From: Moniliella sp. 'wahieum'
Lineage: Eukaryota > Basidiomycota > Moniliellomycetes > Moniliellales > Moniliellaceae
Assembly (NCBI GenBank): GCA_003971905.1
Contig: RSEE01000054.1
Location: forward strand, 389,157 to 453,156
Direction: 5' to 3'
DNA length: 64,000 bases
The notes beneath the pieces are model-generated. The model had not been told where the DNA came from. It was given only the letters and a program-made list of their open reading frames with translations, and did no database searches. Both the position numbers and the translations under genes were made by a program. Shown here piece after piece: positions 2,156 through 60,219 of this stretch. Within the stretch, counting starts at the first letter, position 1. Each line of letters starts with the position of its first letter.

Positions 2156-2180
2156 CGACATGTGACATGTGACATGTGAC
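2156..2180. repeat. 7-bp palindromic array, ACATGT type
   Basis: The palindrome ACATGT occurs at 2158, 2165 and 2172, exactly 7 bp apart, separated by a single G. The surrounding 150 bp hold scattered degenerate copies built on the same GTGACA core. Confidence 0.9.
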
Positions 2181-2233
2181 AGGTGATCATCGTCAGCGCG
2201 TCAGCAATCATGTAATCACTATAGTACCTAGTT

Positions 2234-2260
2234 ACTGGTTACCGGTTACCAGTTACCGGT
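2234..2260. repeat. 7-bp array mixing ACTGGT, ACCGGT, ACCAGT, ACCGGT
   Basis: Four hexamers start at 2234, 2241, 2248 and 2255 with a T spacer between them. Two are perfect palindromes and two are one-base variants. The 7-bp phase is unbroken. Confidence 0.85.
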
Positions 2261-4808
2261 TTCGCTCAGACCCTCAGACCTCCTTCGACTCATCGATCCA
2301 TTACACAGTGAGCTGCGACGGCGACCGCCTATATAGGGCCCTAAGCACTACGCCCCACCCAGTATATAGTGTGTAGTATAGGATCAGTATGGGAGGAAGG
2401 ATGGGAAGTGACACCAAGTCGGGAGGGTGGACGGGAAATCTGGCATATATATATAGTGCACATAGTGCTACATGCTGAAAAGATGAGTGTGACGCGGGAC
2501 GTCGGATGTGGCTGGCCCCCCTCTGATGAGAGTGACCCGGTGATATCTTCCCGGTTGCCAGTACCGGTTACCCTTGGTCACCACGGTAACCCTTCCATCA
2601 ATGTGACGTTCAGGGTGTGGACCCCCTCTCTGCTATAGTGCGACTCGGGAGCACTCGGCAATCTTATGGATCAGCTGCAAAGCAGCTCTGAAGTCAGACA
2701 AGGCGTGTGAAGCATGAAGCTTGAAGGGTGGAGCCACAAAAAAAACCTTGAAGAAGCTCATTGAATATTGAAAACGTCTGAAGGGACAAGAGACGGACAT
2801 CTCATTAGAAATGAGGGAGTTGGAGCGAGTAGTGCAGGGGGTGCGCAGCCTGCGAGTGCAATTGTTCCTCCCGGATAGGCGAGCGTCACCGATCAATCTG
2901 GGGCCGTGCAGGGGAACTGCAGCACTATACTCCTGCACTCTCTTCTCTCCTCTCGTCCGTGTCAGGCGTCAGGCGTCAGGCCTGCTGAGTGGTCGCCCAA
3001 TAAAGCATCAGTGCATTAGCATATCTCTCCCTTTGTACGCCATCGCTTTCCTTCTGTGTCGTTTCATATCATTTGCAGAGCTTATTTTATATATTACGAG
3101 GCTCAAAGGATGGAAAAGAAGCACACACGCTTTTGAATAGTGAGGACACTATGGATATCTGAGTAATCTACAGCACCTATAAAAGCAAAGAACTACCGCA
3201 TAGCGATGTACAGGCATCTGTGTCACAAATGATCATAATTGATGCATTGAAGATAAGAAGGGCAGGGAACATGATATAGAGAAAAAGGTAGAGAATCAAT
3301 GAGATCAATAAGCGCAAGAGAAATTAATTGTGTAGAAGAGATAAACCAGATTCGTGTGCGGATGAGAGCACAAGAAAGGGAGAGAGAGATACAATAAACG
3401 AAGAGGAAGGAGCAGCGTTAAAAAAAAGACGTCTCCGGTGTGTCCCACAGTTGAGGGCTATACACAAGATTCGAGGGAGATCATCATGTTGAGACCCGCG
3501 GTCCCAGACATAGTAGGCAAAAAGAAACTGTCAACGAATGACTAAGCTTGCTCCAATTTCCATTCTGCATTCTGTGTCTCTCGCTCTTCCCCTTCCTTTT
3601 GCTTCCGTTCTCTGCCATGCCTTCTGTTTCCTTCCACGAACGAACTTGCCTTTCCCCTCGGCTTTGACAAGCACCTCATTACCCTATTTCCCCTTTTTGA
3701 CCGTCGAAGAAGCCTCCATGTGTAGACTCTCCACCTGTTCGAACCCATGCCTCTTCCAGATGGGGAAGAAGGGTTATATTACCCTAACCACCACCGTTAT
3801 TGCGATTGCATTGCTCTGCCTTTCCAGAGGTTCACTATCCAAATCCTTGGATTTCTGCGGTCTTACAGGAGACTATAGAATTGGTACAAAAAGGACGGGA
3901 AATGCAGCAATCACTGACCGGGAAAACGAACAGAGCATAAGGAGCGGCGTATAAAAGAGCAGGAAGGAAAAGTCGCTGGTATCCCACTAATATTATATAG
4001 TGTCCTTTGGGCTAGTGTCACTCCCCTTCCTTCTTCCTCTTCTCTTCCACAGTCTGGGCCGGAGCCAGCTCCCTTTACTTCCTTCATCCAATGTATAACT
4101 GCACTTAGGACATCTTTGTGGGGAACGAGTGTCACGGTCCTCTTAACTAATCAGGGGATTCTTCTCACCACTCGTCTTCCCGCCGATCCTGTTCTCCCTT
4201 CTCCCACCAGTGCATCTTTGGCTTCCCTTGGTACTTGGTCTCACTCGTATTCGCCCGACTCTTACAACAAGGGCCATTTTCATGACACCCGTCCCGGCAT
4301 CACTAGTGACTCCACCCTCTCTCAGACCCCATCATCAAAATGTCCCTCGAAGCATGAAGTAAACTGAGTACTGAGTGTTGAGTATCTAAGTACTGGGTTG
4401 TCGTGTCCCAACACGTTTTAAGCATCGAGCAACGATAAACGGAAAACGTTAAACCCCAACACAGCTCTCCATTATCCGGGAACGAATGATGCACGTCCCA
4501 GCTATTCGCAAAAAAAAACCACATCACAGCAACCGCGCGGCGTGTCTGTATAATTTCTCTGGGGTTGGTTCTCATGTGTGCCCTCGTGCTCTGGCCATCG
4601 CAGCAAAACAACAGAGGGGTCGGAGCAAATCCGTTTATCGTGGCATAGAACAAAAGGGATGGACAAGAGGCCGATGTGGAGGCCGAGACGGATTTTATAT
4701 GAGTGGGTGTGGCGCATTATACACTGTGTTCTGAAGCTATTATGGCGCTGACTTTCTTGGGAGATATCAGGATCACCGATCACAAATGTTAATGATAGGC
4801 GCATGGTG

Positions 4809-4828
4809 ACCGGTGACCGGTGACCGGT
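4809..4828. repeat. 7-bp palindromic array, ACCGGT type
   Basis: ACCGGT lies at 4809, 4816 and 4823, separated by one G each, giving the tandem heptamer GTGACCG. Confidence 0.9.
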
Positions 4829-5016
4829 GACCTGGGTCCGGGTGATACAGTGATGCATTTGGAGAAAGCGCGAAAATCAGGGACACAGTTACCGAATAAG
4901 GAGTGATGTTAATGCATAACGCATGGTGGTGCATAGTGGGAAGTGGTCCCATAGGGTCAAAACACGGCTAGTGGCTGCCTATGTTGGGGAATGGAGGCGA
5001 TTACTGTCTCGCCGTG

Positions 5017-5036
5017 ATGCATGATGCATGATGCAT
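5017..5036. repeat. 7-bp palindromic array, ATGCAT type
   Basis: ATGCAT lies at 5017, 5024 and 5031 with a G spacer. Confidence 0.9.
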
Positions 5037-5394
5037 CATTGATGCTGGGGTGGCAGCTGGTAACCGGTAACCGCCGGCGTATTGGCCTGTGGTGGATACT
5101 TGGGTTCCGCGCTTGGCATATCGCGACACGTCCAGCTATACCGCTCATGGCTCCAAAGAGACCTTAAGGCCTAATGTCCTAAGGCCTAAGGCTTAGGCCT
5201 AATGGCACGCTGTAGGGCCAAACAATCACGTCCTCACATGTTTTAAATCACACGTGTCACACATGTCACAACGCCTCTTCTTAGAAACCCTCAGACAGAA
5301 GGGGTCTTGTTGTTCTGAACACCATATGTCTTTTCTCATCGATATCATTTCGCCTCCGGCCTGAGCCTTTGGCATCAGGCCCCCAGGGACCTGA

Positions 5395-5470
5395 CCTCAG
5401 GCCTCATCGATATCCACCTCATCGACCTCATCGACCCCATCGAATCGGCCTCATCGATCTCATCGAGATC
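5395..5470. repeat. degenerate CTCATCGA-type tandem repeat
   Basis: CTCATCGA and close variants recur about seven times. Several copies contain ATCGAT or TCGA palindromic cores. The spacing here is 8-10 bp rather than 7. Confidence 0.75.
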
Positions 5471-5760
5471 GTCTTCTCTCTTCAGCGCATTCACAAATTG
5501 TCTCGGCGTTGTTTGCCCAACCGGAGCTTGAGGGATCAGAAAAGGGGGATATGACAGGGTGGACAGGGTGGGACTTGCAGCGGGGCCGAGGGGGGCCGAG
5601 GAGTGGATACCCCACTCAGAGGTTGTGGAAGCCGATGCATCACTGATGTGTCAAGTACAACGCTAATAGTAACGTTCGATGGACGTCGGACTTCGAGAGA
5701 GCTTAATGCCAAAAGTTGAAGAGGCGCTGAAGCTTTGAAGGTTGGATCAAGCCTGAAGTC

Positions 5761-5780
5761 ACTAGTCACTAGTCACTAGT
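5761..5780. repeat. 7-bp palindromic array, ACTAGT type
   Basis: ACTAGT lies at 5761, 5768 and 5775 with a C spacer. Confidence 0.9.
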
Positions 5781-6760
5781 CGACCTTGACTTCATCAAAG
5801 ACCTTCACGCTCTTGACGTGTCCTGTTCCTACTCAGTATGTCTAATTGGTTCTTTCATCCTGTGTGTGGTCCTTATACCCGCGCCTATTATTACTGAAGC
5901 GGAGAGTCCACACTACGATTTACTTGAAAGCCTAGGAACCTCTTTAACTATTTTCAGCACCTCGCCCTGTGCTCCTGCTACGAAGAGATCGCGATCCCTC
6001 CGTCAACAGATTCCGGGTGCACAGAGCGCGAAAATGTTTGGGGGAAAATAATGCAGGACTTTGGTGAAGGGCAGATGCGAGGAAAACAAAACATTAATAA
6101 GAGGCAGTCATGTGGCCACACCCCCGTAGAAAATGATGGGTAATCCGGTAGGGTAGTCTCCCGGTAACCCTCGGTAAGCCCAAAGCGCCATAATACCGGA
6201 AACCTTGTGAACAAACCATGAATCACATCCAGAAATGTATATCATCCTTTTACCTCGTCGACAACCCAAACGGCAGTCCTTTCCTCTTCTCCATGGAGGT
6301 GCATATATGTGAGGGTGGTGAAGCTGAAGCTTCATGCATGAAGCTTGCAGCAGAGAGGGTGAATAAGTGTGCCCTAAGGCTTCCCTACCATTAGTAGTTG
6401 GACAGTCGCGCTTTTGCGTTGGCTGGTTTGTGAAATGTGAATGGCCTCGGTCACCTGGGGCCTGACCGGGACCGCAGATGTGGCCAAATCTCCCTCCCTC
6501 CCTCCCCCATCCCTTTATGTGGTTCCTTCCATTCAATGTCATAATATGCAGGCGTTGTTGAATATTCAGCTGAAGCTTCAACTTGAAGCCTGAACCTGAG
6601 GCCCATCAGGGCTCAGCGCTGTTGAGGCTCAACGCTCAACGAGCGCTCAGCTGAGCCTCATGCCTCACGCCTCAGCCTGAGGCCTCAGGCTCCAACAGGC
6701 TCCAAGGCCGTTACATGCCGTTGCAGGAGGTTACATGCTACAGGTGACCGGTGGCTGTTG

Positions 6761-6795
6761 AACGTTGAACACGTTGAACGTTGAACGTTGAACGT
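6761..6795. repeat. 7-bp palindromic array, AACGTT type
   Basis: AACGTT lies at 6761, 6777 and 6784, and a broken copy (AACGTA) lies at 6791. The last three keep a 7-bp step with a G spacer. The region 6565-6720 just upstream carries degenerate CAGCGCT, CAGGCCT and GAAGCTT relatives. Confidence 0.85.
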
Positions 6796-6840
6796 ACTTG
6801 TGACATGTATGACATGTGACATGATGACAATTGATTGTGA

Positions 6841-6864
6841 TTATCACGGTAGTCACCGTGATAA
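6841..6864. repeat. perfect 10-bp inverted repeat with 4-nt loop
   Basis: The arm TTATCACGGT (6841-6850) is followed by AGTC and then its exact reverse complement (6855-6864). It stands alone in gene-free DNA with no T tract, so a terminator role is not indicated. It could be a protein-binding site or a cruciform/hairpin element. Confidence 0.85.
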
Positions 6865-9276
6865 GCTTCTATGACCCCTGTACCACATATACAAAAGCGT
6901 TAACTACTCTTTGAGAGACCAGCTTGGACAAGATGAGACTGTTCCTGGAAGTAATTTATTGGTGAAACCCGAGACCTTAAGGCTTTTCAACGTTGAACGT
7001 ATAGTAATGAGAACGTTGACGATGTTGAGAACATTGACTCCGCCTCACACAGCCCTCAACGTCCTCAACCCTCGGCCTCAACTCTCAGAACTCAATCTCA
7101 ACCCTCAGGCCTCAAGGCCTTAACGTTCAACCGTTCAACTTGAACCCTCAACCCTCTCAGGCCTCAGGCCTTAACCCTCAATCGTTGACACATTATAAGA
7201 CGAGGAAGTGCTATTGGATGATATTTTTAGCGCCTTGGCAGCCTTTTCGCTTGTGCTTCTGTTGGGGGGGTAGTGCTAGGCTTCACCTGCTCGTTATAAG
7301 ATTTTTTAGTTTATAGTACGGATGGCACCATACTGCATCGGTCGCTGTTACCCTGTATGGCTGCCATACGTGTGGGCGGAAGCCGTTGTGCACACACCAA
7401 TATGAGAGTTTCTTTACATATAAAAAGGGGTAAACGTTTAGGACGTTTAGGGGCTTAGATGCAATTGGCAGAGAGACAGCGTAGCAGCAAGTCGGTATCG
7501 CTCCAATCTCGATAATTATATCTCATCTGCATTATTTTAGTCGCCACCAAGTCCAGACTCGCTGGTGGTGGAACCTTCACAACTGAACTACCAATCGGAC
7601 GCGGAATGGGGTGGCGGCAATGGGGCTATAATAAAATGTATGGTGTTTCCATCAGGCCGGCACCAGGTGTGGCATGTGAGCGACGAACCATTTGAATAGC
7701 AGACGAGATCTTAGATCTTACTGCATAAAATCACTAGTGACTTCTGCACTTTTCCCCCCAGGTCTTACTGGTAGAATATATGGTGTTGTTTGCCGGTAGC
7801 CGCGCTTGTGCATCATTGACGAACTTTTGCTCATGTCATCATGTCATATGTCAGGCTCAGGCGCATCCCCGCTGAGACTCTTTTTCAGAGAAGGCTACTG
7901 TAGAACGATAGTGCGTTATCGTTTAGTACCGCTTGTGGTCGGTTCGACAAAATAGTTCGGACGGCCCAAAATCAAGAATAAGTGTTAGCCACAATAAGGC
8001 ACGGTTCAAGAACCGAAGTAGTCATGATCCCTGTCATGTTCCCTGTCAACGGAGGTAGGTTCGGCAGGATCGCCCTTCTCCTGGTTTATGCTGTCTTTCG
8101 GTGCCTTGTTTGATGTCAAACGGACATGTACTTGTAATTCGGTTCAGGGAAATGCGACAGAAAATCGGCATACTGGCAATGGTTATAATGATTCGATGAC
8201 GCGAATGAGGTATGGGTATAGAACAGAGCCATTCTACTATTATTTTTATTCAAGTTCTCTCGCTCTCGCTTCACATTTGCAGCAGTGCTCCAGCTCCATC
8301 TGAGCAACATCGAGACTCTCGTTCGGCACCGCTTCTCACTTGGGACTCTTCGAGTCGTTCGGATACATCATTGTTGTCTCTCGATTCCAAACAGGGCATC
8401 ATTGATGCATGGATATAGGAGGAGGACCACTGGGCCTACGGCCCGCCCAGCTTTTTGGTGCTTTGTCGCCACCTTAGCCACCGTTCCCCCTTCGCCACCG
8501 TAGCCACCGTTCCCCCGTCGCCAACACCGACATCGAAATAATATCACGGATACTTGCTGGCTGCGGGTGGCGTGAAATGTGGTACATTCATTGCATGTTT
8601 TCCCCCTATTCACGGTATACTGCTGGCCATAGGCCATTCTTACGGCGTGTATAGTCGTATGTGTCTTTGGCTTTTCGATGCAAAGTGTGTATATCGAAAT
8701 TGTTTTGCTTTCAGGTGTCCCCCACGACACGCTGAGCGGGGGGAGGCTCTGGCACATATGTAACCTCTTTCTATTTCGTGCAAACATATACGATTCGGAC
8801 CTGTAGAGAGAGCCGGTCTGGTACACGGCACTGGGTATATACTCACAGTGCCACTCAGTGTACACTGGTCCTGAAAAGCAACTTCCCGCTTCAACGTTCA
8901 ACGTAAACGCGTTACGCGTTAACATTCAACCTGCAAAGGACCTTCCACGTACAAGCCGGGGTATCTGTGGCGCATGTGGGGGAAAGGAGGGGAGCGTGCA
9001 CAGGTTACTAGTTACAAGCTGTTACATGTTACTGCTATCGTATAGTTTTGTGTGCGGACGCGTGTGACATGTGACATGCGACGCGTGTGATTGTGACGAT
9101 CGGCGATGTGACCGACACCATGCATGATGCACTGACTCCACCGGTGACCGGAGAGAAGTTTATTAATGTGTAACGTTTAACCGGGTAAGCTTGAGCCAGG
9201 ACGGCAACAGGCGGGAACCAGTATTTCGCAACGGGTAATGGTTACCGGTTAAGCTTTAAGTAACACCCGTTTTCAG

Positions 9277-9322
9277 GTGGCTGGTGGCTGGTGGCTGGTG
9301 GCTGGTGGCTGGTGGCTGGTGG
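9277..9322. repeat. GGTGGCT heptamer tandem repeat
   Basis: About six uninterrupted copies of the 7-bp unit GGTGGCT. It has the same period as the palindromic arrays, but the unit contains no 6-bp palindrome. Confidence 0.9.
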
Positions 9323-10677
9323 ACGTGGGCCACCCAGGAACAGGCTTGAAGCTTGAAGCTTCAATATTCAGTCCATCTACCTCCCTTTTGGGGGTGTTGG
9401 GATGGTCAATAGCCACCACGAGCAACCCATTGCCAGTGCCAAGAAGCTTCAAGCCTTCGAGCTTCGGCGGTGGAGACAGCTACGATACGCGATACACAGA
9501 CACCCTGTGCCCGCCATGCGTGGGATGTATGACCTGTGTTTACATATGTTCTTCTTCATTTTTGGCTGGCACAGGCCAGGGGCCCCATCACCACTTGAGA
9601 CAAAACCACCCCTCCAAAACAAACATAGGGACCCCTATACTGTTCCTACCTGGTGCCTACAGGTGCCTGTAGTGCTGGAGCCGAGCAACTAACCGCGTAC
9701 GGGTTGCACGTTGCCTGCGGGTCCGGGAGCCCTAGCCGTGTCTATTGGAGTTCTGGGCTTGGCGGCGCTTTCCTCTGTGGACGGGTCCGCAGACCCTACT
9801 GCCCTACTGCAGTCACCGCGAAGGGCCACACCCTGCCACTCCATGTAAAAGGACGAAAAACAACCACCCAGTTAACTATTGGCAACACAATGGACGTTAC
9901 GTGTTCCTCTATGAAACAGGCTGTCATGCAGTCATGTATTCGAACTCAAAGCTTAAGCGCTTGGGGCTTCAACGTGAACGTACGTGCCACAGAGAAGAAG
10001 TCTGTGGCATGCTCTGCGAGCGCTCACCCGCTCATCCGCTCAGCGCTGAGGCTCAGCGCTCATGCGCTCATGGGCCCAGCTTTGGAAACTTCAACCGCTT
10101 CAACACATCATACATCATGCGTCGTCATGCATCACCTAAACCATTCAATATTCCACGTTCGACCTATGCTCTCCGTATCCATATCCATTCCCCTTCGCCT
10201 TAGGCCTTACGGATGCGCCGGTCCATCAGTGGCTGCTCCTAATAGTGATCAGCGTCTAGAAACAACAGTGGCACTTATCGAAATCATTAACCGATGTGAG
10301 TGACATCTATCCTATATCTTACCCCCATTGGCGCAGAGAAAACGTGAATGTGTATCGTCAGCGTGTCAGCGAACTTATGAGCGCAGGACCATCTGTGGCA
10401 TCAAACTGGTTTAGCGGCGCCGGTAGCCCAAACCCGGATCCATTTCCGATGCATTCCTTCCAATATTCCGTCCAAGATGACAGGAATATTCTCTGGCCTC
10501 TGTAGCTCATACCTACAATGCAATGTACCATCAACTGCCTGCTCTCTGGTCTTCTCTACACCATCAATAACCAAATGCTGATGGGTGGCAAAAGAAGAAA
10601 CGTCAGCGCGTCAGCGTCAAGCTTCAAGTCGATTCGCCCCAATAGTTACTAGGTATTCATAGTCGCTATAGTCAGTC

Positions 10678-10690
10678 ACTAGTCACTAGT
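10678..10690. repeat. 7-bp palindromic pair, ACTAGT type
   Basis: ACTAGT lies at 10678 and 10685 with a C spacer. More single ACTAGT copies follow at about 10.7-11.0 kb. Confidence 0.8.
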
Positions 10691-10817
10691 CACATCGGTC
10701 CCGCTGGTCACACTAGTCACTTCTTGATTAGACTAGTCGCTCGCTAGGATCTAGTCAGCACTCGTACGTACTCAGTACTCGATACTCAGTGAGGTACTCA
10801 GGTGCTCGAGAGTACTC

Positions 10818-10883
10818 AGGCCTCAGGCCTCAGGACTCAGGTACTCAGCAACCAAGCTTCTTCAAGCTTCAAGCTTCAAGCTT
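10818..10883. repeat. composite 7-bp arrays, AGGCCT then AAGCTT
   Basis: AGGCCT lies at 10818 and 10825. AAGCTT lies at 10854, 10864, 10871 and 10878. Within each run the step is 7 bp with a C spacer, apart from one 10-bp step. Confidence 0.85.
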
Positions 10884-11532
10884 TAAGCCCAAAACCACTA
10901 GGTTCTAGACTCTAGTCACTTAAGTTACTATTTACTAGTCATTTGCCAAAGCGACCAAACTCGATCTCGTCGATAGTCACTCTAGTCACTAGTCACTTGC
11001 TTGCAGTCACATGTCACAGCGACCTGTCTTCCATCTGGAGCGAGTGGATGGAGTCACAGTGGGGCTAGGCGGAACCCGCGGAGCCCCGGGTTAAATACCG
11101 ATAAAACCACATCAACATAGGAAACGCGAGAAGTATAAGAAGCTGGGAGATAAATAGTAAGAGAAGTTGAGAATGTTGAGAGAAGCTGATGCGCTGATGT
11201 CGATGATGTCGATGATGGTCTATTGCAGTAACATGTAACAGTCAATGTTCATGTTTTTAACGTGATAGCCTAACCGCTTGACGCTACAAAGCCTGCAGAT
11301 GGTAGCCTCTGGTAGGCCGTCGTATAGGCTGGGGGGAGGGGGGGGGGGACTGATGCACTGATGAGACGCGGCGAGCTGCGCGGCGTATGCAAAACCAAGG
11401 CGCTATTAGCTACTACTTTCTAGTAGCTGTAGTTACTGATGGTTACTAGTTGCTAGTGACCGGTGACCTTCTCTAACTTTTCACTAGTGAGACTGTGACA
11501 TGTGTGACTAGTGACTGCATTATTAGCACGTT

Positions 11533-11552
11533 ACGCGTTACGCGTTAGGCCT
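11533..11552. repeat. 7-bp array switching from ACGCGT to AGGCCT in phase
   Basis: ACGCGT lies at 11533 and 11540, then AGGCCT at 11547, all 7 bp apart with a T spacer. This is a clear case of one palindrome replacing another without loss of register. Confidence 0.9.
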
Positions 11553-12989
11553 TAGGCCGGCCGGCTGAGGTGTCTCCGAGCCCTGTCGGAAAATAGGCGG
11601 CATGGTTCCCGGTACGCTTAGACCCTTAGGCTTCAGGAAAGGCCTTAGGTATCTTGGCATAGAGAAACGCAGTGTCACATTGCCGCCGGCACGGCGTCAC
11701 GCGCCACTGCGCCACCACCCAATACCCAGAAAAAGGTCGTCTTCTGGATGGCTTTTTTCAAGCTTTTGATGACCCTTGCCTCGGGGGTTCTGCGGTCACG
11801 CTCAAGGCTCACCGGTCGACAGTCATCCGCCACCAGTCACACGGTCACGGGCTACGCATCCTACATTGCATGTCACATTGTAGCAGATCCCAGACTAGTC
11901 GCGCCTATCCCACACCTCCATCATGTCACAGGGATCACATATGTTACACTCGGCGTCACATGCGTCACATGTCACAGCCATCCTGTCGTCACCACGTTAC
12001 TATTTGCTAACTGCTTGCCCTGTCCATGTCACTATCACTAGTCACTGTCACACTGTTGCACGAAGCTGCTGGTACGCTCGGTGGGCGGTGGTGCACTGGA
12101 AACTCGAGGGAACATAGTGAACATGGGAACGTACTCGAACGAACCGTCGTGATGTTCTGCCTGGGCACAGCAGTGCGTCAGTGACCGAGCGATCCGCCTA
12201 CCGCTGAGGCTCAGCGGTGATGCTCAACTCTCAATCTCACGCCTCCAACCTTCAAGCTGCAAGCTTCCCGGCCAACATTTCGCCCCAAGCGCACCCCTTT
12301 CGACATACTACGTAGCGGGAATACAAAGCCGTAAGCGGCAACAGGCAAGTACGGGTAAGGGGTACGCGCCACGCCCTGCACCGCAACGCCCCAGGCCGCT
12401 CAGTCTGAGCACTCAGTCAGTACCGGAAGTACTCGACCTGAGGCCTGTGGCCAAAGTGCTAACCGGTGCCACCATCCACAACACTCTCCCCTGCCCTGGC
12501 CGGCACACAACACACAATCCAGCACACGCCGCGCTGTCACCAAGTCACAAGTCACATGTGAGCCGGCGAGGCGCCTGAAGCTTGAAGGCAGGCCCACGTC
12601 CCTGCCCTCCCAGTCGCCCTACCTGACCACTCGGCACCACAGTACCTCCTTCCTCGTTCCCACCACCACCACCACCTCCTCTCTTACTTCGCTCCTCGCT
12701 CCTCCACTCGACCCTACACTCCCGTTCGAATTGGCTCCCGCCAGCGATTGGCTACAGCAGAACGCAGCGGCACCTTATACACCCACCGCTGCCTTTCTCG
12801 CTCCCTTGTCACTCGTTGGGGTCTGCTCTTCGTCTCCCTTTCTTTCACTCTACCCTTGCCGCTGTTTCGACTCGTCTCGTCTCGTCCCTACCCGACCCGT
12901 CTCTTCTTCTCTCGTCCCGTCCCGGCCCGTTCCGTCCCTTCTTGTCTTATCTCGTACTTTCTTGTTTCCCATTTTTCATTTTGTTCGCG

Positions 12990-44954: not shown

Positions 44955-46223
44955 TCAAACGTCAGTTCCCCTTTCATCCGGCGCAAAAAAACGGTCCACG
45001 TACTCATTCACACACTCCCACTCCCCCTTCAGGTTCTCCTTCCACAGCGTAATTTTGCCGTCGCCACACGACGGCCAATACGTTGCCCGATGGACCAGGA
45101 TACCTTCCAGACCGTGTCGGGGAACTTCCCTTGTCCATCGGAAGAAGGGTCCAGGGTGACTTTGGACCACTCGGACGACATTGCCTCTTGCGTCCAGATG
45201 AGCACGGTACGGTCCTGCGATGCGGTCGCCAGCTGTGTCCGGGGCAAGCCTTGACCGGGAGCAAAGGCCACATCACGCACCCAATCCGTATGTCCAGCAA
45301 GTGGGACGGCCTCCTCAACCCACCGGTTCTGCTCCTCGCTAAACTCCCACAGCTTGACCACATTGTCGCATCCGGCACTCGCAAACCTCCGCACGGGGGG
45401 CAGCGCCTGCGCCGCATCCTTGCCCACGCCAAGATGAGGGTTAACCAGGCTGCCGGGAACCACGGCCGGCGCCCCACGAGACGGCATTGGAGCCAATCGG
45501 ATGGGCAGTGACCATGTCCACTGCCCAAGTGCCATTGACTATCGGTCAAGGAAACATGTCAGTTTACTAACCTCGACATAAAATGAGAACAGGTCACGCA
45601 CAATTGAACGTCAATACCGACACGTTACCATCGGACGAGGCACAGGCCAGTACAGCGCCCAGTTCAGGCGGGGCCCAAGCCAGCGAGTTGACCGAGGCCG
45701 AATGCATGGCATGCTCCTTGATCTTTTGCCACGACCCAGTCGGTTGCTGGAGGTGTCGCCCGCCCCGTGCCGGCGCGGCAGCGGAGCCTCCTCGTACTTC
45801 CAAATCAAGACCTTGCCATCGTACGACGCGCTAGCCAAAATCGAGCCGAATTTGGGGTGGGCCCATGCGACCTGCCACACCGGCCCCTCGTGGCCGGTCA
45901 GAGACACACCTGGACCAGTCGCCGCGCCGTCCACAACATCAAAAATCTTGACACTCCGGTCTGAACTGCAAGTAGCCAATCGGCGCCCGTAAAAGTCGAG
46001 CTGGGCATCGTGTGAACAGAATCGCTCTCGTCAGTTCCGCTCCTCAACACAGAGGGGTGCAGGCCACGTACAATCATATCCTCATGGTGAGTTTCAATGG
46101 TTTGGGCTCCGAACGGGCGGGGCAACGGGAGGGGCAGCAAGAGCCTGTGAAGTAGCAAATAAGTGGTCAGAAAAGGCGGTCAGACAAGGGTTTCGAGCGG
46201 CGGGGCCAGTTGGAGCATACCAT
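44955..46223 (-). CDS. SEC13: COPII coat / nuclear pore WD40 protein Sec13
   Basis: Structural propeller of the COPII outer coat (with Sec31) and of the Nup84 pore subcomplex. The first exon is just ATG at 46221-46223, followed directly by a GTATGC donor; the 76-nt intron is 46145-46220. The next exon gives [12 protein letters not shown] and then, after a slip, [12 protein letters not shown] second intron runs 46014-46071. Then come [20 protein letters not shown] and [36 protein letters not shown] with [48 protein letters not shown], and [18 protein letters not shown]. The last blade is [20 protein letters not shown]. Stop at 44955-44957. The second intron's acceptor lacks AG as sequenced (TTCA then CACGATG); one missing G would restore it. 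Confidence 0.93.
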
Positions 46224-47277
46224 CGTTGGTGAGAAATAGCGTGGTGGTGGTAGAGGCTGAGAAGACGGCAGCGAGCACATGGACGTGGCGCCGGCGAGCT
46301 GGCCACGTTGCTCCAACGAACAGATTGACTGGCCTTGTGCGGCTGGGGTTATGTAATACAGGAAACGTTCAATTTTCCAGTGGCAGGTGCCTTCCACGTG
46401 TGTCATCATCGATCATGGATCATAGAGATCATCCGTTAGCCGGGTCATGCGTCACGCGTCACACTCATCATGCACCATGCGATGAGCCAGAAGGATGGCA
46501 TGATCATCGATCATGCATCATGCATCATGCGTGCACATTTTCACCAAAATGTGAGATGCTCCTCCTTGTTCAGGATCGATGGATGTGTCGCCTCGGGGCA
46601 TACGCGAACCAACCCGATCAAATGCTAGTAGCTACGGCCAGCTACAGCCTCTTGACATCCCATCCACCATGGGTATGCTGTAGCACCACTACATCATACT
46701 CCTCCCTCTCCCTCTTCTCTACGTTTACGCATACGCGCGAATTGTTATCAACAAAAGTTCACGCATTTCAGCAAAACTGTCATTGACAGTCAAGCTAGTC
46801 ACAGGCCAGCTCAAAACTGCGCGGGTCCCAGTATGGTATATAGTGTCGGGGACAGCTGCGCCTCCCAAAGGTATCCTCTGGGGCAAGGGAGGCAGATGCA
46901 AGCGGAGGGGGGGGGGGGGAGGAATTCACGTTTCTAGGCACCTTCAAGCGGCAAGTACCAAGCAAGATCACAAGGATGAACGGCCACTGCGCTCGTGCTC
47001 GTATGCACTGACAAAGGTCTCGATGCCCGTGAAAAATTGGCGAAATTGGCGAAAGTTATCATCCTCGCACATATAATCCGATACTCGTCCATGATCTCCT
47101 CACCACGGCGAAGCAAGTTAAGCAGTAGTTGTACGAGTCGGAGTTGGGGGTAATCTCCGACTGAACTGGGACTAAACGAGTAGTTCCCCTAGGGTCGACG
47201 CACCGACGAGCGCCGCTTCCCACGCTGAGCAGGTTGAGTCTCCCCAACATTCGACATCTGAGCGCGCTTCCTACCCG
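46224..47277. other. intergenic region with 7-bp palindromic repeats
   Basis: Contains a 7-bp array (listed separately), loose GATCAT repeats at 46.40-46.45 kb and an 11-bp G run at about 46907-46918. No gene recognised. Confidence 0.5.
46506..46532. repeat. 7-bp array switching ATCGAT to ATGCAT in phase
   Basis: ATCGAT at 46506, ATGCAT at 46513 and 46520, and the variant ATGCGT at 46527, all 7 bp apart with a C spacer. Confidence 0.9.
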
Positions 47278-48519
47278 CTACAACACACACAAACCAAGTT
47301 CCGTGGCAGACCAGGAGAGGCTGCAGGTCTCTCTGACCTCCGACGGATGCTCCCAGGTGCAGAAGAGCGTGGCAAGACGGAGCGGGTGCCGCAGCGGGAC
47401 ACAACAGCTTCGTCCTCGCCATCGTGCTCCAACAAAGCCTCCACCATGCCTTCGTCTGTGGCATCCCCCCGGCTCGGCCCCCATATCCATCGTCATGCCC
47501 GCTTCCGCATCAGTCTCATCTCCCGCATCCTCTTCTTCATCCCCCTCCTCGGTCGTCCCCATTTGCGCTCCAGTGGTACATGCTTCGTCCCCCTTCGCAT
47601 TGAGGGCAAATCATCCCGTGGAAGAGGGTAGTTGACGAGACTTGGTACGTGGGAGGAAGGGTGCCAGAGGGAATGCTCCACCTCAAGTCGATCACATGCT
47701 CGTCGTAGCGTAGGCGAAGATTGATATTGGAATGGCAAGCGAAACGTTGCGAATCGGACAATTCGGTGACCTGTTTGGGTCGATACGTGCTCACCGCATC
47801 CCACCGCTCGTCTTGCGCACAAAGACATTTGGCTGCCCACGTATCGCCCACACGCCATGTATTGCGCATATGGAAGCGGTAGCCGATCAGGCGATGAATT
47901 TCGTTCATCAGCGCCTTGACCGCGCGCGTGCGCCGGCTGGTATTGACTGTATCATCCGTCATGGCAGTTTCGAGGGGCGGAAAGGCGCTCATGGGGAGGC
48001 GGCGCGGTACACCAAGGGGGTTCCCGCCTTACGACTGGTGTCCACTGCCCTACAAACGCGCCCCAGCTGGATAACGACGTGGCGGCGCGATGTTTCCGGC
48101 AGGTGCGCAGCAAGCGGCCATTTTTGAAAAAGTGGACCTTGGGCAACGTTTCGTGGCATCTGGGACACCGGATAAATGCGGGGGCGATCTTGGGATCCAT
48201 CCACGTTTTTACGCTGGCGGACCGGAGGTCGACTCGATGGTAGTCGGGTTGGTGGAAGCATCCTGCTGTGACCCTCCCGGGTTCCTGGCCTTGGCTGTCC
48301 TGCTCATCGTCATGGTCATTATCATCATCATGGATCTGACCATGGTTGAGGTCTTGGCCATGGCCATGATTGCCTTCATCGTGTTCATATCCCCCAGCAA
48401 TCCGTTTGCGACTTCACTCGTCCCACCTAGATCCGGCTGCACGTTGCCAGCCTGGCTCGGGGCAGGAGACGGGTAAAGCGGCCGGCGAAAAGATCCTGCA
48501 TGGGCACAAAGGTTGACAT
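47278..48519 (-). CDS. zinc-binding protein resembling WRKY/GCM1-type DNA-binding proteins
   Basis: Starts at ATG 48519 (MSTFVPMQDLFAGRF). A His/Asp/Met-rich low-complexity linker (48.3-48.4 kb) precedes a zinc-knuckle-like unit, RCPRCHETLPKVHFFKNGRL, then RTCRKHRA (CPxC, then CxxH; about 48.15 kb). The next block has AKCLCAQDERWDAV, RFACHSNINLRLRYDEHVI and DLRW (47.9-47.65 kb). This Cys-Gln-Asp, then basic stretch, Phe-x-Cys, then beta-strand order recalls the WRKY-GCM1/FAR1-like domain of fungal orphan proteins. An acidic Glu/Asp tail follows (DEEEDAGDETDAEAG). Frame changes occur between blocks. It may be a transcription factor or a domesticated element-derived protein; the assignment is tentative and the C-terminus approximate. 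Confidence 0.5.
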
Positions 48520-50398
48520 GGTTGGAGAGATGGCCGCTTCCTAGCGCATTCAACCCAGGTCCAAACCGTGGGATGAGGAGTAGCTAGCAAACCGGAACGG
48601 TGTCTGTAGGTTGCTCCCTCCGCCGCTTGTTCTCGCGCCGATGCATGAAATTGGCCGAAAACCGTGATTACGTTTGAAACGTTTGAAACGGTTGGGGAAA
48701 ATACGACCCCCTGATTCGGAACATCATTAATCAGCGGTTCGATCGCTTACCTACGCAAATGTTGGGATTCGAACACTGGCATCATGCATGATGCATGCAT
48801 CATCGATCATCGATCATCTCTCTATTGTGCTGAGAGTGGCCAGGTTCGGGAGTGCGCGGCGAGTCCTGGATGGGTTTTCTGTGGATTTCCGTATCCCCCC
48901 CAGTCCATTTTGATGAGGGGTTAATTTGAGTATCCCCTCCGAACTGGTTTCTGGGAATACCTGTTACTACATTCCAGTGTCGACTGTTGCGACGCGCGCC
49001 ACTGGTGTAGTATGGCCTAGGGACCCAAGCCCGGTTTGCCTCTCGGGCACATTTCGTTCAGAAAGGATAATCGGAACCGTGTATTCGGATCTGTATACTA
49101 TAGCGCACACTACTATAATTAAACCCTCAACGCTTATTCCGTTGTCTCGAGATGGACGTCGGAGGATGGGAAACGTGGATGGGTTCTCTATAAAAGATAA
49201 GTGATGAGACCTGGTCCTGATGGTCCTCGAGGGTGATGCAATCGCACTGGTGGTGGTGGTGGTCTAAGCCAGCCAGCAACGCCTAATACAGAGGAACATC
49301 AAACATCGAGTCGCTATTATAGGGAAGAACGGAGAGAGAAAACAACGGAACTCCCAGACCTGCGGAGGAACTGAAGAAGGGACATTGGCCAAAGCACGCC
49401 GCCCGACGGCTCAACGACAACTGTTACGGACCAGAGGTGGATATATAGCAGGAGTAAGAAAGAGATGGCTCAAGGGCTGAGAGGTCGTTAAACTCAACAG
49501 AGCTGTAAGAGGCAATTAGGAAGCCTCTTTTTTCCATCGTTCGAAGTACTCTCGAATGTGGGAGAACTCGCAGCTGATGTGGCCGGTTCAATCAAAGGAT
49601 GATAGCGAGCGATAAAATTTGGTGTACCACGAGCGCCGATGCATCTCTCGGTTGCCCAACGTTTTTCAAAGCTCATCTTGAGCCAGAAAGGGCACTAGTA
49701 TAATACGCGACTACGTGGTCTTCCATGGATATTGGGTCCATTAATCGGCATATGCTGCTGTAGTAGTGATAGAAGTAAAGCGTTAACTTTTGTCCGTGGC
49801 AACTTTTGGAGAACTGAGTAACTCTGTCATGTGCGATGTCAAAACCAATCATGTCTTGCCTTGGCGCGTGGACAGTCGCGATTATTCATTCATCCGTCAC
49901 ATCAGCCACCCTCTTGTTGTGCAAAGGTCGTCAATCTACTGACGAATCTCTATATAGCTCTTGGTGGTAGATCATATCTTGTGTAGAAGTATTCGTTGGA
50001 AATCCTGTGTACAACCAGAGAGGGACAGAGAACTGAATCATTGCTATAATCCCACACTATCGAGTGGGTAGCCAAGCGAGCGGGAAAGGGTGGTGGGTGA
50101 TGGAGTGCGGTGGCTTTTTGTGCGATCGTGTTTGCTATGCGTACATAGGAGAGCCAAAAAGCGCGCATGGCCGAAGCGCATTTAAGCTTAATCGCGATCA
50201 CCTCGGGTGGGTGGGTGCCTCGCTTGAAGCTTGAAGCTTGACAAGCCCCCATCTCATTGTTTGGCGTCTCGTATATAGCCCTCTTTCGCCACAACCACCC
50301 CCACTCCTTCTTTTGTCTCCCGCGCCCACCCTCAACACCACCTCGCATCTATCCCAGCCCCCCCCGAGTGCCGTGCCAACCCCCACACCGCACCCAGC
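48520..50398. other. 1.9-kb intergenic region upstream of the P450 gene
   Basis: Mostly unstructured and AT-richer. It contains a 7-bp palindromic array at 48784-48814 and an AAGCTT pair at about 50226-50238. No gene recognised. The last 150 bp are C/T-rich, as expected of a fungal core promoter. Confidence 0.5.
48784..48814. repeat. 7-bp arrays, ATGCAT then ATCGAT
   Basis: ATGCAT at 48784 and 48791 with a G spacer, then ATCGAT at 48802 and 48809 with a C spacer. Confidence 0.9.
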
Positions 50399-52312
50399 AT
50401 GGACAGCATCCCACCTCACTGGGCTGCTCTTCCGCCTTCCCTTAGCTCCCCCGTGCTGGCTGCAGTGGCCGTCGGAGGCGTCTTGACACTCCTGCTGCTC
50501 CTGTGGTACCCTGACCGTCCCATTGGCGCCCACGCCAGGCCAACATTGGTGTCGTTCCCGGCGGATACCCTATCCTGGGCCATGTCGGCATGCTCTGGGA
50601 CTCGATCCGGCTCAAGACAAGGGACCGGTTCCTTGATGACATCTGCGATGCCCAGCGCGCCTTTGGTCCCGGGTTGCGCCCCTATGCTTTCCATCACCTT
50701 GCCATGGGCGGGACGACCATTGTCATCAACCGCCCCGAGTATGTCATGCACTGCCAAGATAACAAGTATGGCAACTTTCCCAACTACATTAAGGCGCGAG
50801 CATTCAGCGTGCCATGTCCGATTTTCTTTCGCCGAAGGGATCTTTGTTGCAGATGGCCAACCTTGGCGAACCCACGCAAGATCGCAGCCAACATCGTATG
50901 TCGCATCTCCTCCCCCCTTGTTGCGTGTGTTGGACTCGTGGAGCAGCTCTGTAGGGATCGTCGATCATCGATCAAGGCGCATGTGGGGTAGTATTAACAG
51001 GTTTCTTCCTGTTGACGCACAGTTCTCGGCTTCGAATTTCCGCACCCACTTTCAAGAAAGCATTCATGCCCACCTGAAGAAAATGGAAGCGCTTATGTCC
51101 ATCTGCGCCAAGGAGCGCATCGCCATCAACTTTCAGGACCTGATGTTCCGTTTTACCATGGACACATTTATGGACATTGCGTTTGGTTCTTCATTTGGGT
51201 CTCTTCCGTACGTCTGTGCTGTCACTCCGAGCGGCAGAAAGGATCAACAAACTAATCTTTACAAGCGAATGTGCCTCTGATTGTTTGACAGAAACCACCC
51301 CCGATGGCCTCAACCATACTAAGCCGTTTGTATCGCTTTCGATCATTTCAAGAGTGGCAAGGACGAGGGCGCAAACGCCGGCTATTCTTCTCAAACTTCA
51401 GCGGTATACTCCAGAAGGACGAAAGACGTCGGCCGCAGTCGCCACCGTCCTTTCTATGGCCAACAAGCTCATCATGGAACGGATCGACGCGCTGGCCAGG
51501 CGGGCGAGGATTCTGTTGGCAAGGATGCGTCAACTAAGGGAGTCAGACAAGCATGGCAGGACTTGCTCCAGCTTTTCCTGACCTTGACTTGAACCCTGAG
51601 ACGTTGAGCCAAGTGCTTCTCAACTATATCATTGCCGGTCGTGACTCGACGGCCCAGACCGTGGCGTGGTTGATGCTCGAACTGAAAGATCGGCCCGATG
51701 TGGTCCAGCAGTTCGTGACGAAATGGAGGCCGTGTTAGGCGATGGTGGTCCCGAGCAGCGTCTGGTTCATATGACGATATCAAAAACCTACCCTACATGA
51801 GCTGTAGTGTACGAGTCATCCGGTTGCATCCCACCGTACCCCCAAAGTCGTGGTGCGTAGAAGACGACGTGATGCGTCCCACCATCTTCCTGACGGAGCG
51901 TACAACCAGCTCCACCCCAACGGGCAAAAGTACGGCGGTACTGGTGCCGCGCGCGGACGCTGAGCCGCTTCCCGACATCTATGTGCTCAGGGCACGACGG
52001 TGATGGAGTGATTACGCCATGGCCGGAGTCCGGAGATTTGGGGCCCGATGCGGCCGAGTACCGCCCCTCACGTTTCTCAAGAGCGATGGCACGGCCAAGT
52101 CGTATTCGGCATACGTGTTTCATGCGTTCAACGCGGGGCCGCGGTTGTGTTTGGGCCAGACGTTGGCCACATTTGAAGCGATTGCCCTGTTGGCTATGAT
52201 TTTGAGCCGCTTTGATATGCACTATGACGAGGTGGCGTTGAAGAAGCCCCGCCACGTATCGCATTTCCATTACGCTACCTATCAAAAACCCTGCCTACAC
52301 TGTCCACCCTAA
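50399..52312 (+). CDS. cytochrome P450 (fatty-acid/alkane hydroxylase-like)
   Basis: Membrane-anchored haem monooxygenase. It starts at ATG 50399 (MDSIPPHWAALPP), with a hydrophobic anchor LAAVAVGGVLTLLLLLWY. The N-terminal half includes FGPGLRPYAFHHLAMGG and YGNFPNYIKA. An intron at 50896-51022 (127 nt) leads to FSASNFRTHFQESIHAHLKK and MDTFMDIAFGSSFGSLP. A second intron lies at 51208-51291. Helix I carries IIAGRDSTAQTVAW. The K-helix ExxR motif is split by a slip near 51.81 kb: GAG for Glu lies in one frame and IRLHPTVPPKS in the next. The haem loop FNAGPRLCLGQTLATFEA (about 52.13 kb) keeps the FxxGxRxCxG Cys. Stop at 52310-52312. Family placement near CYP52/CYP86-like enzymes is an impression only. 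Convergent with the MCT1-like gene. Confidence 0.85.
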
Positions 52313-54598: not shown

Positions 54599-55236
54599 GA
54601 GTAGGGCTAGGGGGGGTAATTGGCGCGATGGGAGGCTCTCGCAGTTACGGTAGATGAGTACTCAGTGCGGAACGCTAGTCGTGAGCAGAGAGAGGTGTGG
54701 ATGAGAGGCGAGATGGTGGGGTAAGGAATGCAGGGGCAGTAAATCGGCAGCGGCGCACCAAAGCCAGGGATGGCGGGCTGAACTGCTGTGTTGACTGTAC
54801 TATTATTATAGTGGGTTGGGCGCAGTCGGTGGGCGCAAGCGGCCAGTTGATCGTGGCTTCAAGAGCAAGAGTCGATGAGCGGGCAACGTTTGGCGAACAA
54901 TTCTGAGGATCTTGGCCTCAATCGTCCAACCTCGCTCTTGGAGAGTATATAGACTTCCGTCGGCTCCGACCATTCAGACCATTCACTAGCGACTAGTGAG
55001 AGCGCCTGGCTAAAACGTTGGTGCGCAGCGCCTGTTCATTTATGCGCACATTGTTCGCGCTCTTAGCTCCGCACATCTCAGTATTGCGACTGCGCCCTCC
55101 ACCCCCCTGGCGACCTGTGTGAGCGGCACTGTGTGGGTTTCCGTGGACCACGAGCGTTGGCGCGGCGCACCGAGTGGCCGTGCGGGGAGCAATAATACAA
55201 GGCACCGCGCTAGTTGTCGGAACTTTGGCTGCCTTG

Positions 55237-55262
55237 AAGCTTCAACTTGAAGCTTGAAGCTT
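55237..55262. repeat. 7-bp palindromic array, AAGCTT type
   Basis: AAGCTT at 55237, 55250 and 55257; the last two are 7 bp apart with a G spacer. Between the first and second lies a one-base-shortened copy (AACTT). Confidence 0.85.
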
Positions 55263-55985
55263 GATCCAAATCCCATCTACGCCACACCCCTGGACAGGGG
55301 ACCGCCCCCCGCCCTGCTGCTACGTATTGGGCGCGCCCCCACTCGGCGCTCCTCTGCGCCGCCAGCTCCTGCGCCACCCGTCTCAAAAGGAGCTCTTGCA
55401 ATACGGTCAATATTCGATAGGCAGGTGCTTCCCCTGTGTTTTCACCCTAGTTGTAGGGCCTCATCCGCCAATCATCGCAGGATGACTATAGATCGTTATC
55501 TCCACCATACGCGTCGTATAGCGTCCTTCTCTCTTCCTACTACTGGCACGTGCACCATGCTCCTCCTCCGTCCCCTCTGCCCGCCCTAAGCGCTAAGCGA
55601 GGCCACGCATCGGGCGCTGATGACGGACGTGATGCTACGGCATAGCAGGCCTCAGCCAGGCCCACCAGGGTTGTGAGTTGTTGTTGGTCAGTGGAGTTGG
55701 GCAGTGGCTGGGGTCGTAGAAGAGGTTGTATGGTTCGTCTCCCAGTCCACCTTAAGGCAATCTACCTCTCCGCCCAACCGCCGTTGCAACGACGACACGA
55801 CACACACGACCTGCGCAGCTGCCAGTGTTCCGAGCCGTGTCATTCGCAGGGCCGAGGCGGGTGGACCAGCGACGTGGAGAGAAGAGAGGCGAAGCGAGGA
55901 AGAATGCACGAGACAAAACGAAAACCGATGGCAGAACGAGTGTGGATTGAAAGACACGGGCTAGCAACCGCACACTAGACTATAC

Positions 55986-56014
55986 ACTGCACTGCACTGC
56001 ACTGCACTGCACTG
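55986..56014. repeat. ACTGC pentamer tandem repeat
   Basis: Five perfect copies of ACTGC plus a partial sixth, in gene-free sequence. Confidence 0.9.
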
Positions 56015-58818: not shown

Positions 58819-58842
58819 GTCGCAAGACGACGCACCGCACGC

Positions 58843-58926
58843 GGGAGGGGAAGGGGGGCGGGGAGGGGGAGGGGGAGGGGGAGGGGAGGGGGAGGGGGAG
58901 GGGGAGGGGAAGGGAAGGGGAGGGAC
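58843..58926. repeat. GGGGGA purine tract upstream of the proline-rich gene
   Basis: About 80 bp of G4-5A repeats on the + strand, 25 bp upstream of the start codon of the minus-strand gene. Its 5' leader is therefore nearly pure pyrimidine. The plus strand could form G-quadruplexes. Confidence 0.85.
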
Positions 58927-60179
58927 GGAACGGGGTTTCTAGGCGTGGCGGCAAAAAGAGGGGCGACGGGTGGGACGGATGGATGGATGGATGCTGGCAA
59001 AGCGAGGCGGGGGCAATGAATGAATGGCTGGGCGACAGCAGAAGGGACGGGGGAGAGGGCGGGAGAAGCGGAGGAAGCGCCGTGGGTCTTGGAGCGTGGC
59101 GCCTCACTCCGGCCTCAAGCTTCAAGCGTGAAGGATGCAGCCGAAGGGTGAAGGGGAAGCTAGCGTGCGGGAAGCGTAAATAACACCAAACGCTGGTTTG
59201 GCCGCCTCACGTTCAAGTCGGCCGCTGGTACTGGCGGGGTATGCCGAGGGGGAAGGACAGGCCCCGGACGTTCAGTTCGAGTTGGACGCAAAACGTGCAA
59301 TCCTCGGCACACTCAGCCGGCGGCGAAGGCGACGGGAATTGAGCCGGCGTGCGGTTGGAGGGCGAGGGGCCGCCTGTCGGCGCTAATAGCAGCAGCGCTG
59401 GCCCTCCTGCCGATGCCCAGGACGGCTGACAAGGTGTCTTCCCTTGGCACGCAGCCAGCCGCCGCGGCGTCGATACGTATGTCTGTTCCCACCATCATCC
59501 ATCCGTAACTCAGTTGCCAGTAAGTACGACTGACGCGGGGCATCAGCCACTCGCGCCAGCCCACCCGCATCCTGTGATCAGCACCGCCAGCCCGCCGTCC
59601 GCGCCGTCAAATTTCAAACCCGACAGATCGAGCTCCCAGCGTCTCCCCCCTCCTGCCTCTCGCTACCACGTCCAAGCAGACGACTTGCCCCACGCTTTCT
59701 TTTGATCGTTCTCAGCAGACGCGGGGGTGCGCGCGCGCTGCATTGTACGGCATGTCTGGGCGCCTGGAAAATAATGAAAAGAGCCGTTTTGCATCGGTTT
59801 CCCGAGGCCATATCCGGTGTTCCAACCAGCACTGGAACGGAGGAGGAGGGTCAGGCTCTGACGTCCTGACCAATGGATGGATCGGTTGATGCGAATCAGG
59901 GGTCGGTGATCGGGTGATGGAGTGGTGAGATGGCGGCCAGGGTGGCGTTTGTCCGGCTCCCCGTTAGCGCGTAGCGCTGATAGCTGTACAGGATAGCTGG
60001 GTGGCGCGGAGCCGGTAGGGTTACGGGATGCGCTTGTGTTGAGGATGCTCACCGGTCAGCGGTCGCTATTCAATGGGGCCCCTGCCGGCCTGCACCGCCA
60101 GATCAGCCATCGCCGATCCCGATCATCGATCGGTGCGCCACCAGCCACTAGCTCGTCACACTCACACGTCACACGTCAC

Positions 60180-60219
60180 ACTAGTCCTAGTCACCGGTCA
60201 CCAGTCACTAGTCACTAGT
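60180..60219. repeat. mixed 7-bp array ACCGGT, ACCAGT, ACTAGT, ACTAGT
   Basis: Hexamers start at 60193, 60200, 60207 and 60214 with a C spacer. ACTAGT also lies at 60180, one base out of register. Confidence 0.88.

Follow-up and report, generated by a model that had tools for sequence, protein, structure and literature searches.

Tandem 7-bp units with a TNA core and self-complementary arms in a 64-kb window of Moniliella DNA: a possible repeat class defined by symmetry

The window analysed here, a single 64-kb stretch from Moniliella sp. 'wahieum' (contig RSEE01000054.1, positions 389,157 to 453,156; GC content of 57.6%), contains short tandem arrays in which the triplet TNA, where N is any base, recurs every 7 bp and successive copies enclose a self-complementary stretch of 4 bp (T-n-A-PPPP-T-m-A). 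Seen as units, the arrays consist of 7-bp odd palindromes, NN-TNA-N'N', usually present in two copies. The sequence of the unit is not conserved, as every one of the 16 possible palindromic tetramers is represented and N takes all four values. We consider it possible, with a probability of roughly 0.4, that these arrays form a class of tandem repeats whose defining features are symmetry and a TNA core instead of sequence, that is, 7-bp units with arbitrary self-complementary arms written mainly in gene-poor DNA by a symmetric copying or a cut-and-join activity. The existence of a symmetry-defined repeat rests on very strong statistics from this one window.

A preliminary description, made from the letters of the sequence, had reported palindromic hexamers of the form A....T repeated with an exact 7-bp step, each followed by one spacer base. 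The examples that it quoted, ACGCGTTACGCGTTAGGCCT (11533-11552), ATCGATCATGCATCATGCAT (46506-46525), and ACCGGTCACCAGTCACTAGTCACTAGT (60193-60219), are exact. The analysis reported below goes further in identifying TNA as the constant word (the A....T of the hexamer plus an outer T and an outer A), in detecting all 16 palindromic tetramers, in showing that the periodicity falls off 2 bp beyond the outer TNA, and in revealing flipped neighbours.

Results

The interval between TNA triplets is palindromic at a spacing of 4 bp

Pairs of TNA triplets in which both N belonged to the same class (C/G or A/T) were collected over the whole window. At a spacing of 4 bp, the intervening tetramer was palindromic in 108 of the 202 pairs, for 12.6 expected. 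Palindromic counts were close to expectation at spacings of 2 bp (20/68; expected 17), 6 bp (3/123; 1.9), 8 bp (1/65; 0.3), and 10 bp (1/99; 0.1). The palindromic pairs represent 69 independent loci, 60 of them located inside three spacers, and the excess persisted when a single pair was retained per locus (54/118; p = 7 × 10–31 against 7%). The most common tetramer was AGCT (16 loci), and AATT and TATA were found once each. The nine palindromes listed in the preliminary description are therefore present but incomplete, since 16 of the 16 possible tetramers occur. Likewise, the spacer bases C, G, and T that it allowed are all found, and A has to be added, TAA triplets flanking a palindromic tetramer being present six times.

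The limits of the spacers were set after the arrays had been seen and were revised once, which is why whole-window figures are also reported. Positions 1921-12600, 46001-51000, and 59001-61700 were used for the TNA-pair, hexamer, neighbour, and autocorrelation counts, and positions 1921-12400, 46001-49000, and 60000-61700 for the counts of centre triplets and triplet intervals. The palindromic fraction of TNA pairs was 97/158 in the spacers and 11/44 outside, indicating that the pattern is concentrated in gene-poor stretches yet present elsewhere too.

Exact period-7 dimers were counted over the whole window against 50 local dinucleotide shuffles, after discarding units with one dominant letter. 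There were 51 such dimers for 4.0 expected, confirming that the 7-bp step exceeds a shuffled null. Thirty-five were TNA-centred odd palindromes (expected 0.02), one was centred on GNC, and none on ANT or CNG. Non-palindromic dimers were also above chance (15 for 3.4 expected) and less numerous than palindromic ones (36); the two kinds are therefore not equally common, contrary to the refuting condition set in the preliminary description. TNA-palindromic tandems at other periods were limited to one at period 5, one at period 9, and none at period 11. The autocorrelation at lag 7 had a z-score of 14.9 in the 1.9-12.6 kb spacer, with smaller peaks at lags 14 (5.1) and 21 (4.1). Conservation of symmetry and period, as proposed in the preliminary description, is thus borne out by both the dimers and the TNA pairs.

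The TNA core is the constant element of the units

In the spacers, T was present at position –5 in 68% and A at position +5 in 63% of the 206 palindromic A-PPPP-T hexamers, whereas only 17-28% of the hexamers closed by other pairs had such an outer T or A. The inner tetramer was palindromic in 206 of 1113 A-NNNN-T hexamers, to be compared with 77/1268 for C-NNNN-G, 81/1219 for G-NNNN-C, and 65/989 for T-NNNN-A. When the 64 possible centre triplets were ranked in the spacers by the number of palindromic 2-bp flanks, only three were clear outliers, TCA (80 for 25.5 expected, z = 12.0), TGA (57 for 19.0, z = 9.0), and TTA (28 for 10.1, z = 6.1), with TAG (25 for 10.7, z = 4.5) and TCG (z = 3.1) coming next. 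The highest-ranking centre in the gene block was ATT (z = 3.0). Non-TNA triplets that recurred at a 7-bp distance in the spacers enclosed a palindromic tetramer in 42 of 839 cases. The arms displayed a mild trend in composition, the enrichment of TNA units being lowest for arms containing only A or T (19 for 9.4 expected) and higher for arms with one (124 for 41.9) or two (53 for 19.5) G or C. The pentamers GTCAC, TTCAA, CTCAG, GTAAC, and ATCAT were over-represented.

A second, asymmetric spacing was also noticed: pairs of TCA and of TGA separated by a 6-bp interval (9 bp apart) are frequent in the spacers (29 and 20 pairs, respectively), the interval being palindromic in just two (TCA) and one (TGA) of them.

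Edges, neighbours, and in-register switches

The palindromic tetramers were assembled into 65 chains, of which 51 contained one tetramer, 11 contained two, and three contained three. In the one-tetramer chains, the two bases located immediately outside the outer TNA maintained the period in 36 and 32 of the 51 cases on the left and in 33 and 33 on the right. The match fell to 14/51 (left) and 20/51 (right) at the third base, and the next four positions still matched in 15-22 of the 51 chains. Because the period drops 2 bp outside the TNA, the edges fit NN-TNA-N'N' units, followed further out by some degenerate copies. The two kinds of symmetry axis are both relevant: among the 82 palindromic pairs sharing the same N, both adjoining units were symmetric in 28, one in 43, and none in 11, and two symmetric units separated by a non-palindromic junction were found in two cases.

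Neighbouring TNA triplets were found in both orientations. In the spacers, the junction was palindromic in 78 of 127 direct neighbours (n = m) and in 19 of 31 flipped neighbours (n complementary to m), other combinations of N being rare (28 pairs, four palindromic). A further count of palindromic pairs gave 82 with the same N, 26 with complementary N, and six with other combinations. Of the 158 spacer tetramers, 97 were perfect palindromes, 39 kept one pair, and 22 kept none; if the latter 22 represent background, about 15 of the 39 half-kept tetramers are background as well and about 24 would be decayed copies.

According to the preliminary description, one perfect palindrome can give way to another while the register holds. 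Such switches do exist, although they are few: uninterrupted chains with the same TNA contained three of them (at 9242, 11531, and 46504), for 12 changes in which just one of the two tetramers was palindromic and six in which neither was. Units can also be imperfect, the ACCAGT at 60200 being one mismatch away from a palindrome. If a damaged TNA is allowed, a different palindrome was present at offset 7 on 19 of 104 mismatching sides (18.3%), a figure in which five junctions are counted from both sides and the first two bases are required to differ. The corresponding values were 22/170 (12.9%) at offset 14, 24/197 (12.2%) at offset 9, 21/209 (10.0%) at offset 12, and about 6-8% at most other offsets. 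The register excess is therefore modest, since offsets 9 and 12 are also raised.

Gene content and location of the arrays

The window is most likely fungal nuclear DNA. A Pfam scan of 20 open reading frames (ORFs) returned a family match for eight at an E-value of 0.01, and the gene set looks fungal. The matches include a Zn2Cys6 cluster, which is a fungal domain, Rrp14, RCC1, and the dynactin domain, the last in two ORFs; matches to F-box-like, cytochrome P450, and acyltransferase families were below the Pfam cut-offs. No tRNA was detected in the window by ARAGORN and no RNA gene at Rfam gathering scores. The gene-dense block at 12.6-46 kb is marked by a period-3 signal. The first 12.4 kb contain 32 stop-to-stop ORFs of at least 90 residues, of which the rightmost continues into the Zn2Cys6 ORF; two of the 32 were scanned against Pfam and neither had a match. 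Array positions appear in Table 1.

Table 1. Array-bearing stretches and main arrays of the window.
Feature	Position	Strand
Gene-poor spacer, densest in TNA-palindrome units	1921-12600	
TGA-CATG-TGA-CATG-TGA, core of the first array of the preliminary description	2163-2179	+
TTA-CCGG-TTA, with one-mismatch neighbours CTGG and CCAG on its flanks	2239-2248	+
TGA-(CCGG-TGA)x3	4807-4830	+
TGA-(TGCA-TGA)x2, then flipped neighbour TGCA-TCA	5015-5031	+
TCA-(CTAG-TCA)x2	5759-5775	+
TGA-(ACGT-TGA)x2	6775-6791	+
TTA-CCGG-TTA-AGCT-TTA, two palindromes switched in register	9242-9258	+
TCA-(CTAG-TCA)x2	10676-10692	+
TCA-(GGCC-TCA)x2	10816-10832	+
TCA-(AGCT-TCA)x2	10862-10878	+
TTA-CGCG-TTA-CGCG-TTA-GGCC-TTA, in-register switch	11531-11554	+
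Second array-bearing stretch: 46-49 kb and 5' side of weakly P450-like gene; lag-7 z only 2.8	46000-51000	
TCA-TCGA-TCA-TGCA-TCA-TGCA-TCA, in-register switch	46504-46527	+
TCA-(TCGA-TCA)x2	48800-48816	+
TGA-(AGCT-TGA)x2, upstream of P450-like ORF	50225-50241	+
TCA-TCGA-TCA in putative intron (judged by eye) of P450-like gene	50965-50974	+
TGA-(AGCT-TGA)x2; flipped neighbour at 55235	55248-55264	+
Third array-bearing spacer; lag-7 autocorrelation z 6.9	59000-61700	
TCA-CCGG-TCA-CCAG-TCA-CTAG-TCA, one-mismatch tetramer between two palindromes	60191-60214	+

Other repeats were observed in the window. The longest exact 7-bp array, GGTGGCT repeated 6.7 times at 9276-9322, is non-palindromic. CTCAA and GCTCA words with irregular spacing at 7040-7200 and 10010-10140 resemble, by eye, decayed heptad arrays. 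A 40-bp direct match with 82.5% identity links 6324-6363 to 59114-59152 around AAGCTT arrays and exceeds the length of the arrays. A G-rich tract of GGGAGG repeats is present at 58843-58924.

Arrays in viral-collection and bacterial sequences

The comparison set consisted of the flanks of 166 loci from a viral collection and from bacterial genomes, with the arrays masked. In these flanks, 92 of 1226 (viral collection) and 67 of 936 (bacterial) TNA pairs spaced by 4 bp enclosed a palindrome, versus 108 of 202 in the window. Bacterial genome contigs contained at least 120 stretches with three copies of CTTGAAG and, among the matches listed, 49 of 80 were named Pseudomonas. These CTTGAAG arrays do not show the TNA rule, since their masked flanks are only at background palindromy. 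In the viral collection, TNA arrays were found in 10, 25, 1, and 12 stretches, versus 4, 6, 0, and 3 for letter-matched ANT arrays, but this 48 to 13 bias is given no weight here because near-identical contigs and unrelated GCTTGNN heptads are included. The near-identical loci are L004/7/8/10, L012/16/19/21/34, L015/20, L024/32, L169/173/175, and L172/178.

Three further patterns were observed in these sequences. GCTTGNN or AAGCNNC heptads with variable NN (AAGCTTC, AAGCTGC, AAGCTAC, AAGCGGC) are present in bacterial loci L047-L126 and viral-collection loci L011-L035. One contig type of the viral collection (L004, L007, L008, and L010) carries TCA-CTAG repeats changing to TCA-TTAA in register, a switch resembling those of the window. 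An 18.4-kb contig of the same collection (L169, L175) carries GTTGAAC trimers at separate sites and in both orientations, with seven matches in L169 and one in L175; L173 has shared flanks.

Discussion

Origin of the arrays

The covariation of the arms in the absence of a fixed arm sequence points to base-paired copying or to an enzyme requiring only self-complementary joints. We tentatively favour the former, in the guise of a duplication by local strand switch or fold-back, with TNA as its seed. Such a process would act locally, in mostly non-coding DNA, making or copying 7-nt NN-TNA-N'N' units. The arms would become symmetric by pairing with each other, through strand switch or fold-back copying, and a step specific to the TNA sequence (a nick, a pause, a loop, or a cleavage) would seed the duplication and set the unit at 7 bp. 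Duplication, rather than selection for a function, would then be the origin of the arrays, and strand copying the source of their symmetry. Since 16 of 16 tetramers occur, the arms covary, which is most simply accounted for by pairing or copying; self-annealing ends also provide one of the simpler readings. The restriction of the centres to TNA, in spite of the greater fold-back stability of other centres, indicates that a sequence-specific step would be needed as well.

The stability of the hairpins is unlikely to select the units. With nearest-neighbour DNA energies, the mean minimum free energy of three copies was –3.20 kcal/mol for TNA, –3.42 for ANT, –5.23 for CNG, and –5.58 for GNC, and the lower stability of folded TNA units relative to CNG and GNC units weakens the plain hairpin-stability reading. 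Within TNA units, the trend with fold-back stability was weak (Spearman coefficient of –0.24, p = 0.052). GNA forms a very stable triloop; this type of stability was also rejected, as no GNA centre came near TCA, TGA, or TTA, GTA (z = 1.7) being the sole GNA among the best 14 centres. The mechanisms suggested in the preliminary description are thus weakened in their plain forms, a dimeric protein (see below) or a stable hairpin, whereas copying combined with a sequence-specific step remains viable.

Several observations weigh against duplication by strand switch or fold-back. TNA units are the least stable of those compared, no part of the mechanism explains the preference for T and A, and longer odd-palindrome tandems, which are better at pairing, are nearly absent (one at period 9 and none at period 11 for TNA). 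About one third of the flanking arm positions are mismatched and, since positions 3 to 7 outside the TNA match in 14-22 of 51 chains, the edge of the arrays is a drop rather than a clean cut. The in-register switches suggest that the junction tetramer is kept, not the 7-bp unit alone. The cores also extend beyond non-coding DNA: 10 of the 35 TNA pairs spaced by 4 bp in the gene-dense stretches (12.6-46 and 51-59 kb) are palindromic, and the core at 41981 corresponds to residues 109-112 of an ORF matching dynactin over residues 80-240.

The main rival, which we regard as possible but not probable, is a cutting-and-joining enzyme (recombinase, transposase, or nuclease-like) recognizing two TNA half-sites 4 bp apart. 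The self-complementary 4-nt overlap would let ends rejoin either way, so that sites could, with a similarly limited likelihood, multiply, flip, and mix. Fixed TNA half-sites, a strictly 4-bp and self-complementary interval, the equal palindromic fractions of the two orientations (78/127 and 19/31), and the existence of some in-register switches are all as this reading predicts; the period drops in the middle of a tetramer, 2 bp outside the TNA, rather than at the end of the overlap, and half-sites of 3 bp would be very short. Topoisomerase II, which generates 4-nt overhangs, was rejected as the source of such scars: maps obtained with VP16 are reported to show a preference for C beside the cut (PMC6813358, in excerpt), which speaks against this enzyme and leaves a preference for A unsupported by that text. 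It is unlikely that the arrays are selected binding sites, whether of a single TNA-reading dimer or of a family of dimers differing in arm preference. The clusters do lie in gene-poor DNA, pentamers are over-represented, and one word tends to be reused locally, the arms being the same in 48% of 54 unit pairs located 8-20 bp apart versus 7.6% of 9099 pairs located 3-10 kb apart. However, the plain dimeric-protein reading is weakened because a dimer with loose contacts predicts independent arms, which would not give covariation over 16 tetramers; sixteen dedicated dimers are implausible, and adjacent units mostly repeat a near-symmetric word in direct orientation.

Transposon scars, in which TNA would be a 3-bp target duplication of the PIF/Harbinger type and the tetramer 2 + 2 bp of terminal inverted repeat left after excision, are a far less credible origin. 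A 4-bp inverted repeat between TNA direct repeats, with the same N prevailing on both sides, has the expected layout, but this reading would require all 16 terminal dinucleotides instead of one terminus per family, tandem trimers and tetramers exist, and the flanks continue the period. Of 110 mPing excision events in yeast, 109 were precise (PMC2836001, in excerpt). A dispersed element was also rejected, as comparison of the window with itself in 1-kb pieces (E-value threshold of 1 × 10–3) gave only 12 non-self matches of 20-62 bp, nine of them at array loci. Finally, it is hardly conceivable that the arrays are ordinary 7-bp microsatellites produced by slippage with accidental palindromy. Slippage would explain why non-palindromic period-7 dimers exceed chance, but not the 35 TNA-palindromic dimers found for 0.02 expected or the covariation over all 16 tetramers. 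The matched controls for centre and spacing speak against slippage in the window, and the earlier statement that slippage of a single motif is insufficient therefore holds.

Comparison with known repeats

Repeats are usually classed by their sequence; these arrays have a free sequence and keep their symmetry, their period, and a three-base core. Either copying or cutting and joining would, if true, be a mutational signature that we did not find described in the open-access literature. In that literature, no named repeat class combining the symmetry with the TNA rule was found, in agreement with the preliminary description, and six of the array strings, used as queries, matched no paper.

REP and REPIN elements are, as the units of the window, short, palindromic, and present in many copies. 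They are bacterial, REPs being given a length of 20-40 bp and classified according to a feature present at one of their ends (PMC3733652 and PMC3116915, both in excerpt), whereas the window contains no many-copy family of 20-40 bp palindromes, its 12 pairwise matches being mostly arrays. The palindromic repeats of Volvox carteri organelles are also located in non-coding DNA, both intergenic and intronic, and their loops are often TTTA or TAAA; these repeats are mainly organellar, and the plastid palindromes of 14-79 nt (average 50) share a consensus (PMC2670323, in excerpt), unlike the 7-bp units of the window, which form no hairpins of tens of nucleotides with a shared consensus. PIF/Harbinger elements and Tourist MITEs share with the arrays a 3-bp direct repeat of the TNA type, TAA or TTA in the case of mPing, but are characterized by precise excision and an element sequence, without tandem symmetric tetramers (PMC2836001, in excerpt).

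Closest to the arrays are heptameric short tandem repeats and self-complementary repeats of the CNG type, each sharing one defining feature of the arrays and failing another. CNG trinucleotide repeats are self-complementary, the strand folding back with regular N-N mismatches. As in these repeats, the unit of the window is palindromic save for an unpaired central base (35 of the 51 period-7 dimers, with a TNA centre), but it comprises 7 bp instead of 3, is centred on TNA, has many interchangeable arms, and is usually present in 2-4 copies. Unlike in hairpin repeats governed by stability, the choice of the unit does not track fold-back stability. The cyanobacterial STRR sequences are heptameric short tandem repeats. 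Heptameric repeats are abundant in bacteria (PMC4692102, in excerpt), and the arrays of the window resemble them in having a 7-bp head-to-tail unit, an intergenic location, and an exact period that exceeds chance. The bacterial repeats are named by their fixed sequence, whereas in the arrays of the window the letters are free and the symmetry and TNA are kept.

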